Positions 15,816-40,113 of a stretch of 61,574 bases of DNA are shown here, piece after piece. The translations under genes were made by a program, and so were the position numbers. Within the stretch, counting starts at the first letter, position 1; the number at the start of each line of letters is the position of its first letter. The DNA is from Kiloniella sp. (GTDB taxonomy: Bacteria > Pseudomonadota > Alphaproteobacteria > UBA7985), in the NCBI GenBank assembly GCA_002690455.1, contig NZET01000002.1:1-61574 (forward strand), given 5' to 3'. A model generated the notes under the pieces. That model saw only the letters and a list, made by a program, of their open reading frames with translations, was not told where the DNA came from and made no database searches.

Positions 15816-15867
15816 TTGCGCGCTCGATTTGACGCCGCTTCGCGGCTTACAAATCTCCCACGCGCAA
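15816..15867. repeat. Palindromic element A, copy 1
   Basis: A 52-bp element. The outer arms TTGCGCG and CGCGCAA pair, the middle arms GATTTG and CAAATC pair, and the inner arms GCCGC and GCGGC close a TTC loop. The inner 30 bp (15826-15855) recur base for base at 26214-26243. The CGCGCAA arm can instead pair with a second TTGCGCG at 15895-15901 across a GGCTTCGGC/GCCGAAGCC hairpin. Confidence 0.85.
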
Positions 15868-16022
15868 GGCTTCGGCTTGAGGCCGAAGCCTTGGTTGCGC
15901 GGGAGAGGGCCGAAGACGGCGAAGCCGTCGAGGACCGAGCCCGCCACCCCGTGAGTTTGGCAAGGGCGAGTCTACCCCTCACCGGTGGGAGCCATCACGT
16001 CGCAATCACTTTGCGCAGAAGT

Positions 16023-16075
16023 GCGCGTCGCTGCGCTCCGCCGCGCGAAGCGCGGTTGGAGCGAAGTCGGCGCAA
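16023..16075. repeat. Palindromic element C (GCGCAA-ended, GAA loop)
   Basis: A 53-bp imperfect palindrome starting GCGCG and ending GTCGGCGCAA, with arms CGCTCC/GGAGCG and CCGCGC/GCGCGG around a GAA loop. It shares the ends and the GAA loop with the elements at 26093 and 33868, but the arm sequence is different while pairing is kept. Confidence 0.7.
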
Positions 16076-26062: not shown

Positions 26063-26092
26063 GCGCCGGAGTGATGGTGTCGCCGTTGGTCT

Positions 26093-26143
26093 GCGCGACG
26101 CCTTGTCGAAGACCGCGAAGCGGTCGAGACAAGGTCGGCGCAA
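26093..26143. repeat. Palindromic element B, copy 1
   Basis: A 51-bp element from GCGCGACG to GTCGGCGCAA, with arms CCTTGTC/GACAAGG and GACCGC/GCGGTC around a GAA loop. It recurs at 33868-33918 with a single base difference (A26112 to G33887). It lies between the convergent yqaA-type and GlxA-type genes and could also act as a terminator. Confidence 0.85.
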
Positions 26144-26163: not shown

Positions 26164-26286
26164 ACCGCGCTCAACGCGGTACCCTTTGAGCGCTAGGCAT
26201 AGCTGGCGCGTTCGATTTGACGCCGCTTCGCGGCTTACAAATCGTCCACGCGCAACAAAACGGACGCGCCGGCCCAGGCCCGGCGC
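26164..26286. repeat. Palindrome cluster including element A, copy 2
   Basis: Three further hairpins follow element B. ACCGCG/CGCGGT lies at 26164-26180. Element A copy 2 occupies 26206-26255, with inner 30 bp identical to 15826-15855. GCGCCGG/CCGGCGC lies at 26266-26286. The element A copy and the last hairpin both run into GCGCAA, the same tail as elements B and C. Confidence 0.75.
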
Positions 26287-33845: not shown

Positions 33846-33867
33846 TGTTGGACGACAGACCGTAATC

Positions 33868-33918
33868 GCGCGACGCCTTGTCGAAGGCCGCGAAGCGGTC
33901 GAGACAAGGTCGGCGCAA
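33868..33918. repeat. Palindromic element B, copy 2
   Basis: This 51-bp copy matches 26093-26143 at 50 positions. The difference (G33887 for A26112) changes an A-T pair in the inner stem to G-T, a pair that RNA tolerates as G-U. It lies 23 bp after the SCP2 gene, where a terminator would be expected. Confidence 0.85.
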
Positions 33919-35567: not shown

Positions 35568-37142
35568 TCAGTACAAGGCATCGGGCATCGAATCTTTCCG
35601 GTTCCGGATGAAGGTTGTTAGCGCTTCGTCTACGCCGGCGTCAAGCGCAGGGGCGACGGCGTCATAATCCTTAATCATCTGTTTCCAACGGGTGTTCGCA
35701 CGCTGATACATGTCTTGCGAGCCTTCGATTTCCCACTGCTCAAAGGAGGCTGAATTGGACAGTTTAGACTCGTAAAATGCCGTCTGATAATTGCGGTTGG
35801 TATGGTCACAGCCGAGGAAATGGCCACTTGGGCCGACTTCTGCAATGGCGTCCATGGCCTGACCGTTGGCTGACAGGTCTACGCCACCTTGCATAATATG
35901 GATCATGGCCAGTTGATCAGCGTCCATTACTAGTTTTTCCGGGCAGGACACCAACCCGCCTTCCAGCCAGCCCGCCGAATGCAGCATGAAGTTGACCCCT
36001 GCACCCACAGCCGGGAGGATCGACATCATGGTCTCATAGGCCGCCTGAGCGTCTGGTACTTTGGAGGCATTGAGTGAACCGCCCGAGCGGAAGGGTAGGT
36101 TCATGCGCCGAGCCAACTGTGCCATTCCCATCGTGATCAGCGCTGGTTCTGGCGTGCCAAAGGTTGGCGCGCCGGAAGCCATCGACATCGACGCTGCAAA
36201 AGTACCGAAGATTACCGGTGAACCTGGCCGAATCAACTGACCATAGGCGATGCCGGTCATGGCTTCGGCCAAGCACTGCGTCATTACCCCCGCCGGTGAG
36301 ACAGGCGCCATTGCACCGGAAATCAAGAAGGGTGACACGATACAGGCCTGATTGTTCTCCGCGTAGACCCGCAGAGCGCCGTTCATAATCCCATCATAGG
36401 TCAGGGGCGAGTTAACGTTGATCAGACTGGTGGTCACGCAATTCTGGTCGACGAAGTCTGCGCCGAAGACCAGCTTGCATAGGTCGACCGTATCCTGCGC
36501 CCGTTCCGGTGCCGTCACCGAACCCATGATCGGCTTGTCGCTGTATTTGAAGTGACTGTAGACCATGTCGAAATGACGCTTGTTCACTGGCACATCAACA
36601 GGTTCGCAGATGGTGCCGCCCGAGTGATGCAGCGCAGGGGACATATAGGTCAGCTTCACCAGCGTTTCGAAGTCGCCAAGCGTGGCGTAGCGTCTGCCTT
36701 CGTCATAAGACCGGTAGAAGGGCGGGCCGTAGACTGGCGCGAACACCGTGCGCTTGCCACCGATTTCCACATTGCGTGCAGGATTGCGGGCGTGTTGAAC
36801 AAACGAGGAAGGCGCGGTTTTGCAGAGTTCTCGGAGCATCCCTTTGGGGAAACGGATCCGGGCGGTGTCGGTCTTCCCCTCCGCCAAGGTGATATCAGCG
36901 CCCTGGGCTCGCCACTTTTCAATGGCGAAGGCATCTTCGGAGATGTTGATACCAATTTCCTGCAGGATGGTGTCGGCGTTGGCCTCGATCAATGACAGGC
37001 CCTCTTCGGAGAGCACGTTGACGTCGGCAAGCTGACGGTCGATGACAGCAAGTTGCTCGATAGATGTTGGGGCACCGGTTCGCTCGGCGCGACGGCTGCC
37101 ACGACTACCGCGACGGCCGCCGGTTTGTTCAACTGCGGTCAT
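35568..37142 (-). CDS. MttB-family trimethylamine/betaine:corrinoid methyltransferase, non-pyrrolysine
   Basis: A 524-residue member of the MttB superfamily (COG5598). ATG 37142 follows a good GAGGAG; the frame continues upstream to 37247 without similarity. The frame is open throughout with no internal amber codon, so it is a non-pyrrolysine member, as are the glycine-betaine methyltransferases. These enzymes move a methyl group from a quaternary amine to a corrinoid protein. Typical segments are PAGVMTQCLAEAMTGIAYGQ, HDMVYSHFKYSDKP-like residues and the end RNRKDSMPDALY. The N-terminus is Arg/Gly-rich. The partner corrinoid protein is not encoded next to it, while a RACo-type activator lies at 23334. 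Substrate unknown. Confidence 0.86.
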   Translation of the reverse strand: MTAVEQTGGRRGSRGSRRAERTGAPTSIEQLAVIDRQLADVNVLSEEGLSLIEANADTILQEIGINISEDAFAIEKWRAQGADITLAEGKTDTARIRFPKGMLRELCKTAPSSFVQHARNPARNVEIGGKRTVFAPVYGPPFYRSYDEGRRYATLGDFETLVKLTYMSPALHHSGGTICEPVDVPVNKRHFDMVYSHFKYSDKPIMGSVTAPERAQDTVDLCKLVFGADFVDQNCVTTSLINVNSPLTYDGIMNGALRVYAENNQACIVSPFLISGAMAPVSPAGVMTQCLAEAMTGIAYGQLIRPGSPVIFGTFAASMSMASGAPTFGTPEPALITMGMAQLARRMNLPFRSGGSLNASKVPDAQAAYETMMSILPAVGAGVNFMLHSAGWLEGGLVSCPEKLVMDADQLAMIHIMQGGVDLSANGQAMDAIAEVGPSGHFLGCDHTNRNYQTAFYESKLSNSASFEQWEIEGSQDMYQRANTRWKQMIKDYDAVAPALDAGVDEALTTFIRNRKDSMPDALY

Positions 37143-37576
37143 GAGCAAGGCTCCTCGTTTGGGGGCGTGAATCCTTTGTGTGTCGTCTTGCGGCGAAGAA
37201 CTATTCCACTTCCGCCTTGGACTGCCGTTTGACCGCCCCCACGTCATGCAGTTTTGATGGGTGGTCTGATCCCCTGTAGGCCGATCTTGCGGAGGCTTCC
37301 AGACGGCAGGCTCGGGAGCGTGTAGTGTGGTCGGGCCAAGTGGTCGGGCAAAGGCGTGTGCGCGGTGTTTGCTCGAGGCGGTTGCGCGACTTTGACGTGC
37401 GCGGTTAGTCAGGGGTGAGCGCCCTGACGCTCAGGTAGCATAGAGGAAATTGCGGCGTGGAGCTTTTGTGCGTTGGCGCGACACGGGTCTTCAGTAAATG
37501 GGCGCTTACGTTATGTCTGAGTCCGGCTTTCGTCTGCAGGGAGAGCGAGGGCCAGAGCCAGAGCCAGAGCCAGAGC
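37143..37576. other. Intergenic region with overlapping alternative hairpins
   Basis: About 430 bp between divergent genes. It holds two mutually exclusive hairpins, GTCAGGG/CCCTGAC (37408-37428) and TGAGCG/CGCTCA (37416-37433), which share bases. Four copies of CCAGAG follow at 37552-37575. The promoters of the MttB-type and beta-propeller-like genes must also lie here. Confidence 0.5.
37552..37575 (+). repeat. Hexanucleotide repeat (CCAGAG)x4
   Basis: Four perfect CCAGAG units end two bases before GTG 37577. Because the unit is six bases, copy-number change keeps frame. If translation starts upstream at GTG 37457, the repeats encode a Gln-Ser run. Confidence 0.9.
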
Positions 37577-38485
37577 GTGAAACTACAGCGGAGCCCGCAG
37601 GAAACACTGCTGGTCGCCGGCATGAACGGCGAGGTTGTGGAATTGGACCATGACCTGCAGGAAGTCGGCCGCTGGACGGCGCACGCGGGCGCGGTCAACG
37701 TTCTACAGGCGGGAAGGGAAACTGACTGGACTGGTAAGGCAGATGCAAGCGCACATCTCATTTGGACGGCCGGCGGCGACGGCTGCTTGCGGGCCTGGGT
37801 GCGGGATGAGTGTCTCAGTCAGGCTAAGCCTGAGGGCCCTGATGCGACGGAGGAGAGCAAACCCGGTGCAGCGCTTGGGGATAGCGCGGCGGTATGGTCA
37901 GAGGCCCTCTGTCTGTTTGGACCAAAGAAGCCGATCACGGCCTTTTGGTGGGGTGAGGCCGCCGGTGCCTTTGCCTTGGGCTACGAGCGCGCGCTTTACC
38001 ATTGGTCGGCGCCAGAGGCGCAACCGCGCAAAATCAACGGTGTGGCCAGCCTCGAGCGTCTCGGGCAGGCGTGGTACGGCTGCCCGAAGACAGGGGCAAA
38101 GGCCGCTGACATTGGCCCGCTGGCTGAATTCGATCCCATTACCGGAAATTTTGGGACGCCGGTGTTTGACGATGGTTTCGCAGTCTGGTCGCTGAAGCCA
38201 TGGGATGACCGACGTTTGCTGGCCTTTGGGGTCGATCGGCGTGCTTGGGTAGTCGATCCGATCATGGCGCGCCGACAGTTGATTGAGTGGCACTGCGAAA
38301 GCAGCGGGCCTGGGTCGTTGATCCTGTCGAACGGGAGTCGCCTGCTCTATGGCGAGGGAGCAATCGTCTGTGATGGCATCTCAACCGATGCACCTCTGCG
38401 AGGGCTTTACGGGGCGGTCGAGTGGCCCCGTGGCCGGGTCCTATTTGCCGGTGCCGATGGACAGGTTTGGATCTTTGCGCTCTGA
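37577..38485 (+). CDS. Beta-propeller-like (WD40-type) hypothetical protein
   Basis: About 302 residues with propeller-like repeats: LLVAGMNGEVVELDHDLQEVG, then AHAGAVNVLQ and LIWTAGGDGCLRAWV, which read like WD40 blades with a GH-to-W spacing, and later VLFAGADGQVWIFAL at the end. No catalytic motif is apparent. I place the start at GTG 37577, after the hexanucleotide repeats; ATG 37622 is possible, and GTG 37457 would add 40 residues including a Gln-Ser repeat. No signal peptide is seen with the shorter start. It stands alone, convergent with the aminopeptidase gene. Function unknown. Confidence 0.6.
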   Translation: MKLQRSPQETLLVAGMNGEVVELDHDLQEVGRWTAHAGAVNVLQAGRETDWTGKADASAHLIWTAGGDGCLRAWVRDECLSQAKPEGPDATEESKPGAALGDSAAVWSEALCLFGPKKPITAFWWGEAAGAFALGYERALYHWSAPEAQPRKINGVASLERLGQAWYGCPKTGAKAADIGPLAEFDPITGNFGTPVFDDGFAVWSLKPWDDRRLLAFGVDRRAWVVDPIMARRQLIEWHCESSGPGSLILSNGSRLLYGEGAIVCDGISTDAPLRGLYGAVEWPRGRVLFAGADGQVWIFAL

Positions 38486-38604
38486 ACAGCTTCCGAATGG
38501 TTGGGCGCGGGCCAGTCGGCGTTACCCTAACGGCTCATTTCACCAGAGCCGTCAAATCTTTGCCCATCGAGACTCTGCCGCCCGCTCCGCAATTCCCATG
38601 CGCA

Positions 38605-40113
38605 TCAGCCCTCGTAGTGATCCTGCACTAGTTTGTTCAGCGAGCGCACTGCAAACCCCGTTGCGCCTGTGCCGACCATTGGCTTCGCCTTGTCTGCCCA
38701 AACGACACCTGCAACATCCATGTGCGCCCATTTCTGGTCCTTTTGGATAAACCGTTCCAGGAAACAGGCCGCGGTAATTGAGCCGCCCCAGCGTCCTGCG
38801 CTGATGTTGCGCATGTCGGCCTCTTTGCTATCGAGCATCTTGTTATATTCTTCGCCCAGCGGCATCCGCCAAACGTATTCGCCCGTTGCCTCAGACGCGT
38901 CGTGGATCTGCGCAGCCAATTCATCGTCATTGGAAAATAGCCCTGCTTTCTCCATGCCCAGCGCCACCAGCATGGCGCCGGTGAGGGTCGCAAGATCCAC
39001 AATGAATCTCGGTCGGTACTGCTCTTGCGCATGCCATAGCACGTCCGCAAGAACCAACCGCCCTTCCGCGTCAGTATTCAGAACCTGGATGGTCTGCCCC
39101 GAAAGCGAAGTGACGATATCGCCGGGGCGTTGGGCGTTACCATCGGGCATGTTTTCCACCAGGCCGATCAGGCCGACCACGTTGGCCTTTGCCTTGCGGG
39201 TGGCGAGAGTTTTCATCAAACCCGAGACCGCCGCAGCTCCGCCCATGTCCCACTTCATGTCTTCCATTCCGCCCGCAGGCTTAAGCGATATGCCGCCCGT
39301 GTCGAAACAAACGCCCTTGCCGACAAAGCAAATTGGGTCTTTGTGGACGCCGCCACTCGCCCCCTTCCAGTGCATGGCAACAACCACGCTGTCTCGGATA
39401 GATCCCTGCCCGACACCTAGAAGCGATCCCCAGCCCTCCTTCTTCATCCGTGCTTCATCGATAAGAGTCACTTCAACCCCCAGCGGTTCCAGCTCAGCCC
39501 GAACCCGTTCAGCAAAGGCCATGGGGTGGAGAACATTGGCCGGCTCATGTTTTAGGTCGCGGGCCAGGTAGTGCCCGGCCAGCCGCCCAGCAGCCTGCGC
39601 CAGATTGTCATCTGCGGCCGCGCTGGAAGGATTATCACACAGCCCCACAATCGACGTCACAGACTGGCGTTGTTCATCCTTGAGTCTGGTGCGGTAACCA
39701 TCGAAGCGGTAGGAGCGCATCGCGGCTCCCTCAACCAGCAGGGCCGCGGTTGCTGCGTTTGCATCGTGGGGCAGAATGTACAGGCTTTCGTCACCCGAAG
39801 TTGCCACCGTGGCGAGCATCTGCGCGCCCGCACGATTTAGATCGAGTAGGCTGGGGCTTTCCTTACCCATGCCGCAGAGTACGATCCGTGCCGGCAGGCC
39901 TTCACCGGCCCCCAGCACCAGTTGGATCTTACCTTTCTCGCCTCTGAACCGGCCCGCCTCAGCCGCCCGCCGGATGGCACCTCCGCTGGCCTCATCCAAT
40001 GTGGCCAGCCTTCCAGACCAGGGCTTGTCCTCGACCACAGTCAGGGCAAGGGCGCCGGGGAAGCTTTCAGGTACAGAGCTCAGAGAAATCGAGGGCATAG
40101 ACGCAGGCGTCAT
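38605..40113 (-). CDS. pepA: Leucyl aminopeptidase (M17, PepA)
   Basis: A 502-residue M17 aminopeptidase removing N-terminal residues from peptides in the cytoplasm, normal length for the family. The signature NTDAEGRLVLADVLW is complete, and the metal ligands and catalytic Lys are in CFVGKGVCFDTGGISLKP and the following MKWDMGGAAA. Start ATG 40113 gives the usual N-terminus; 26 extra residues to 40191 are unrelated. The start region faces the divergent TauE gene across 169 bp. Some PepA proteins also bind DNA, but nothing here points to that. Confidence 0.95.
   Translation of the reverse strand: MTPASMPSISLSSVPESFPGALALTVVEDKPWSGRLATLDEASGGAIRRAAEAGRFRGEKGKIQLVLGAGEGLPARIVLCGMGKESPSLLDLNRAGAQMLATVATSGDESLYILPHDANAATAALLVEGAAMRSYRFDGYRTRLKDEQRQSVTSIVGLCDNPSSAAADDNLAQAAGRLAGHYLARDLKHEPANVLHPMAFAERVRAELEPLGVEVTLIDEARMKKEGWGSLLGVGQGSIRDSVVVAMHWKGASGGVHKDPICFVGKGVCFDTGGISLKPAGGMEDMKWDMGGAAAVSGLMKTLATRKAKANVVGLIGLVENMPDGNAQRPGDIVTSLSGQTIQVLNTDAEGRLVLADVLWHAQEQYRPRFIVDLATLTGAMLVALGMEKAGLFSNDDELAAQIHDASEATGEYVWRMPLGEEYNKMLDSKEADMRNISAGRWGGSITAACFLERFIQKDQKWAHMDVAGVVWADKAKPMVGTGATGFAVRSLNKLVQDHYEG

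Follow-up and report, generated by a model that had tools for sequence, protein, structure and literature searches.

In BIMEs and REPINs, REPs are paired with their orientation alternating (PMC2817692, PMC3116915), and a single REP is a stem-loop of 20-40 bp. In REPs of the GTAG/RAYT type, the 5′ foot of the hairpin bears a tag, GTAG or GGAG, that stays unpaired, and the genome that holds them encodes a RAYT (Y1 HUH) transposase flanked by the repeats. The CGTC-tagged REPs of Alphaproteobacteria, which have no dedicated transposase, are recognized by a CGTC tag, stems of 8-9 bp with A-T at the base, loops of 4-5 nt and a CCA tail, and frequently form dimers of opposite orientation in convergent and unidirectional intergenic spaces (Di Nocera et al. 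2013, PMC3733652). The Neisseria intergenic mosaics mentioned in the same paper are large assemblies of different palindromic modules, while a MITE combines terminal inverted repeats with a target-site duplication and a cognate transposase. Template switching at hairpins, finally, produces block compensatory changes and inverts spacers (PMC8794818, PMC8604942).

The elements described here form a genus-specific superfamily of dispersed, non-coding, imperfect palindromes of 51-54 bp, and the family works like BIMEs and the transposase-less alphaproteobacterial REPs (PMC2817692, PMC3733652). Like BIMEs and REPINs, its members are short intergenic palindromes with regularly spaced opposite pairs, mosaic composites and placement at gene 3′ ends, present in high copy number in a few related species. 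Unlike them, they exceed the REP size range and stack three helices, several subfamilies with unrelated arms occupy the same slot, and neither a RAYT nor a clear GTAG tag was found. With CGTC-tagged REPs they have in common that they are alphaproteobacterial, that no dedicated transposase was found, that dimers of opposite orientation are frequent, and that convergent and unidirectional spaces are occupied. Because size and RAYT do not match, and probably the tag does not either, we regard the family as being of the REP/BIME kind without classing it as REP. Our preferred reading, to which we give a probability of roughly 0.55, is that these are genus-restricted REP/BIME-like repeats that act as DNA, not as host RNA, and have spread singly and as composites behind genes. 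Alphaproteobacteria are known to carry palindromic repeats without a transposase (PMC3733652), and the family is an addition to these; it also offers a natural test case for distinguishing RNA selection, DNA-level templated change and selection at copying.

Anatomy and distribution of the palindromes

The window, the whole 61,574-nucleotide stretch analyzed, is contig 28 of the MAG of a marine alphaproteobacterium, 1.69 Mb in 29 contigs and 63% complete; this genome was sampled as 444 kb in stretches, the window included, together with loci around copies. A sequence-only reading of the window had named three elements, at 16023-16075, 26093-26143 and 33868-33918, with GCGCG starts, a GAA loop and GTCGGCGCAA ends. 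All three are real and lie where it put them, and three further members had been overlooked (15816-15866, 15896-15946 and 26204-26254). The six members, and one associated palindrome, are:

15816..15866, minus strand: subfamily C palindrome (covariance model, folding)
15896..15946, plus strand: subfamily D palindrome (covariance model, folding)
16022..16075, plus strand: subfamily B palindrome, arm block CTGCGCTCCG/TGGAGCGAAG
26092..26143, plus strand: subfamily A palindrome, the subject of this analysis (pattern search, annotation, folding), laid out as TGCGCGACG-CCTTGTC-GAA-GACCGC-GAA-GCGGTC-GA-GACAAGG-TCG-GCGCAA
26167..26193, no strand assigned: F-like palindrome GCGCTCAA...TTTGAGCGC, lying in the spacer that separates A and C in their composite (identified by eye; its score falls short of that used for annotation)
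26204..26254, minus strand: subfamily C palindrome that forms an oppositely oriented pair with the A copy of 26092..26143
33867..33918, plus strand: subfamily A palindrome (pattern search, annotation, folding)

At position 33867 the 33867..33918 copy has C instead of the T found in most others, and its conserved part begins at 33868, as the earlier reading had it. As single-stranded DNA, the three elements named by that reading fold better than dinucleotide shuffles (z = -4.6, -2.6 and -2.5).

The four subfamilies are built alike: TGCGCG is followed by a short unpaired segment and then by an arm, a small internal loop separates the arm from an inner stem leading to CGC, and past the GAA loop comes the mirror image. 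Elements are 52 (A), 54 (B), 51 (C) and 51 (D) nt long, the consensus of all four has 25 nt ahead of the GAA loop, and the right end is GCGCAA or GCGCCA. There is also a fifth type, F, which is smaller (CGCTCAAAGCGAAGCGTTTTGAGCG or ACACTCAAAGCGAAGCGTGTTGAGTGT) and has only the GCGAAGC apex in common with A-D. In the DNA hairpin literature GCGAAGC, the sequence at the apex, forms a mini-hairpin of extraordinary stability. The class of DNA mini-hairpins that includes it is treated elsewhere (PMC10527192), and this stability may be relevant to the elements. With respect to tags, columns 9-12 read GGAG in most of C and D, although G12 pairs and an outer helix lies outside the tag; A and B have no tag of the GTAG/GGAG type. 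The elements likewise depart from CGTC REPs, with a loop of 3 nt, long and interrupted arms, and GACG at the 5′ foot of A/B ends, though GCGCCA is the end of some C/D copies.

The sequence-only reading had proposed a genome-wide covariance-model search for more copies, and many were found. Pattern searches of the window's own genome returned the 26093 element 7 times when up to three mismatches were allowed, the ends GCGCGnnGC...GTCGGCGCAA in 21 copies, and TGCGCG...GCGAAGC...CGCAA 43 times, where a reversed-pattern control gave 1; a covariance model of subfamilies C and D, with 150 candidates scored, matched it at least 89 times at E<=0.01. In all, the genome contains at least about a hundred elements. 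The same model found at least 89 copies in each of the MAGs MED803 and SP156, 7 in MED834, and 11 in G004 and 4 in G001, each a further species of the genus. It found no copy in the other genomes of the class, 239 of which were searched at E<=1e-4 under stricter large-set filters. Among 84,980 species genomes, the exact C core occurred only in MED803, SP156 and MED834, which belong to this genus and whose records are titled Rhodospirillaceae bacterium or Geminicoccus sp. The general pattern stayed at background level in other families, and viral contigs, plasmids and phages contained no matches to the elements. The G004 and G001 versions are diverged: their arms differ, their ends are the same, and together with a leading hairpin each makes up a unit of about 91-94 bp. 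Another mosaic module, CCCCCTT...AAGGGGG...GGGGG with variable inner hairpins, lies upstream of this unit at L186, L187, L189 and L192.

Placement and composite architecture

The three elements named at first had been described as intergenic and near gene ends or starts. This is correct for each of them: the 26093 element lies 30 bp past the stop of a VTT-domain gene, the 33868 element 22 bp past a stop codon, and the 16023 element ends about 32 bp ahead of an Rrf2-type regulator gene. Intergenic placement also holds for the clusters examined, 61 of 63 being outside genes predicted by a simple purpose-made caller. In the window's own genome, convergent spaces held 11 of 23 clusters, compared with 35 of 212 background gaps of at least 50 bp (Fisher p = 0.001). 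Summed over subfamilies, gene 3′ ends were faced in 81 of 114 scorable cases, and the G004/G001 units mostly follow the stop codon directly, their right end lying 2-53 bp behind it in 9 of 12 units.

Such positions would fit an explanation in which the elements are host-functional RNA hairpins at 3′ ends that would stabilize mRNA, stop antisense read-through or aid termination, with selection on the RNA keeping the arms paired. Against it, the three window elements named at first have no T-run behind them (the next bases are CGGTGC, GATGGG and TCCAGC), as an intrinsic terminator would, and no Rfam family matched the elements.

The copies are further organized into composites. Flanks could be used for 64 C copies; upstream of 39 of these stands an A, B or D copy of opposite orientation, in most cases at a distance of 50-62 bp. 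These regularly spaced alternating palindromes in intergenic mosaics have the architecture of BIMEs. An intervening hairpin and a TGTCCGTTTGAC linker are common to many composites, whose ends are inverted (TTGCGC...GCGCAA); no target-site duplication was seen by eye around them. Near-identical composites stand at unrelated sites, which indicates that they disperse as composites. The Neisseria intergenic mosaics are similar in being large mosaics of different palindromic modules, but the modules are others, and here A, B and D have common ends and exchange in one position.

At L098 (6950-7108) and L120 (1644-1802), a spacer hairpin between C and D, with the minus-strand sequence GGACACGCCGGGC...GCCCGGCG...CTTTTTTTGTC, resembles an intrinsic terminator inside the composite. 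At L109, L116 and L119, CCTTCG(A/G)CAGGCTCAGGA... interrupts the F palindrome of several copies and resembles another dispersed motif.

Arm covariation and change at the same site

The sequence-only reading held that arm sequences differ between elements while each pairs internally. This is true family-wide, with the exception of truncated copies and of two chimeras (L105, 5545-5596; L123, 3159-3210) in which a D left half and an A right half are joined at the GCGAAGC apex and the arms are unpaired. The A-T to G-T change that it pointed out between the 26093 and 33868 copies is also correct, and a single change of this kind is by itself little evidence for compensated pairing. Among copies at large, however, the arms covary far beyond chance. 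Across 48 different copies of C and D, 90.1% of cells are paired versus 82.2% after shuffling, 83 cells are altered on both sides versus 31.5±4.2, and the covariation score is 0.277 versus 0.127, a signal that is lost when the partner is slid by one column. In 25 B copies, 6 pairs are altered on both sides versus 1.4 in shuffles. Because the shuffle control ignores relatedness and counts the C/D difference, one old split, many times over, the changes within D and within B are the safer part of these figures. Individual comparisons give the same kind of change: the B copy at 16022..16075 has two doubly compensated pairs relative to a copy at C8:19411 of the same genome, and the four sites that differ between the G004 copies L190 and L191 are two adjacent, fully compensated pairs, with nothing else changed.

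Covariation is commonly read as proof of a functional RNA. In this family it is strong among copies, and inside orthologous copies there is no compensation. We compared 12 same-site element pairs between sister species. Differences occurred at 15 of 412 paired positions and at 13 of the 202 that are unpaired; each of the 15 paired changes was one-sided, and 10 of them set a Watson-Crick pair against a mismatch, a change that could have run in either direction. Overall, the elements differed at 28 of 614 positions and their immediate flanks at 125 of 969. The elements are thus conserved relative to their flanks, and their pairing is not mended in place, since every paired change is one-sided. 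These one-sided changes fit compensation that arises in single templated events or at copying rather than by slow per-site selection.

Strong covariation and slower change than in the flanks are what the RNA-hairpin explanation would lead one to expect, and slower change, a point against our preferred reading, would also fit host function or gene conversion. The one-sided loss of pairs in orthologous copies speaks against it, as does the failure of G-T to be preferred over A-C by strand (26 and 16 one-sided states, roughly equal in frequency, in a weak test of low power because elements occur in both orientations). So does presence or absence at orthologous sites: an A-C composite of SP156 (L110, 4785-4945) is missing from the orthologous space of the window, about 38350-38700, which is an empty site. 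The sequence-only reading had offered selection on a folded RNA or a palindrome-dependent mobile element as the source of compensated change. Selection on RNA is not supported; compensated change can also arise in one step through hairpin-templated template switching (PMC8794818), and we consider host-functional RNA hairpins unlikely.

Turnover and possible routes of dispersal

Other changes at shared sites affect whole elements. Around the sites compared here, SP156 and MED803 mostly show 91-96% similarity. At one site in these two species (L104/L080), a B copy is inverted exactly between TTGCGC and GCGCAA, and the rare GGGGCCAAG variant in both argues for the same copy having been turned round. 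At L105/L109 the place of the sister species' B is taken by a D/A chimera, and at L124/L102 the sister species has D where B and C stand; the compared loci were chosen for containing C, so the proportion of common sites does not follow from them. The inversion, the one apparent case of its kind, and the slot changes both rest on MAG assemblies, in which palindromic repeats can be misassembled. The same 18-bp core deletion is present in two loci, L104 and L116, and it and the empty site come from MAG assemblies too. Two other candidate inversions were set aside: between L114 and C6:126348 the stretch enclosed by the flanks gives too poor an alignment, and the inverted composite at L017/L109 could represent separate insertions.

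Together, the compensated blocks, the apparent inversion and the precise core deletions suggest palindrome-templated DNA processes combined with dispersal. An element that becomes single-stranded, for example on the lagging strand, would fold into one hairpin with a GNA-triloop apex. Hairpin-templated synthesis could then copy one arm onto the other, so that the shape would stay while the arm sequence changed, and the same process might flip the element between its inverted ends or delete its core. The changes are like template-switch mutations in their block compensation, arm homogenization and spacer inversion between inverted repeats, but the published cases concern mutations of RNA or yeast genes, not the evolution of dispersed repeats (PMC8794818, PMC8604942).

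These documented events, together with the multi-pair compensated blocks, the in-place inversion and the exact core deletions, also fit a purely mutational origin, in which ordinary palindromes would be homogenized, inverted and deleted by template switching at replication and would spread only through occasional recombination, without any dedicated mobilizer. That no mobilizer was found in the genus genomes or beside the clusters is in its favor and counts against our preferred reading, as does the lack of a target-site duplication visible by eye. The RAYT that the sequence-only reading had suggested looking for did not appear: Y1_Tnp (PF01797) was detected in 0 of 6 genus genomes, all of them MAGs that are 63-96% complete, and in 5 of 14 controls. 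Y2_Tnp matched neither the genus genomes nor the controls, so this negative carries no weight. No transposase-like gene recurs beside the clusters, where only ABC ATPases and dehydrogenase-like proteins do. Without copying to new sites it is hard to explain how the same ends and apex came to stand in at least 89 copies at intergenic sites that are unrelated, and how whole composites recur as units; we doubt that mutation by itself made the family.

If the repeats are mobilized as DNA, as our preferred reading has it, a putative trans-acting enzyme might recognize their ends, apex and shape rather than their arm sequence. A stronger version, which we think unlikely, is a RAYT-free dispersal in which such an enzyme would read folded single-stranded DNA through its ends, GNA apex and shape, leaving the arms open to rewriting, with several arm 'alleles' competing for the same slot and sites. 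The folded single-strand architecture, conserved ends and variable arms, and the in-place inversion, are also reminiscent of attC-like folded sites, in which case a tyrosine recombinase, integron-like or other, would have the elements as its targets or have left them as remnants. We disfavor this and think it very improbable: integron integrase (TIGR02249) never exceeded the cut-off in the genus, where weak sub-cut-off matches occurred as they did in 14 of 14 controls, cassette arrays were not seen, and the ends are not RYYYAAC...GTTRRRY.

Elsewhere in the window, a gene of the MTTB trimethylamine methyltransferase family that has no in-frame stop (35568-37247, minus strand) contains a PYLIS_3 RNA match at 35975-36070, which at 34.8 bits is below the cut-off of 38 and probably just reflects the shared gene family.
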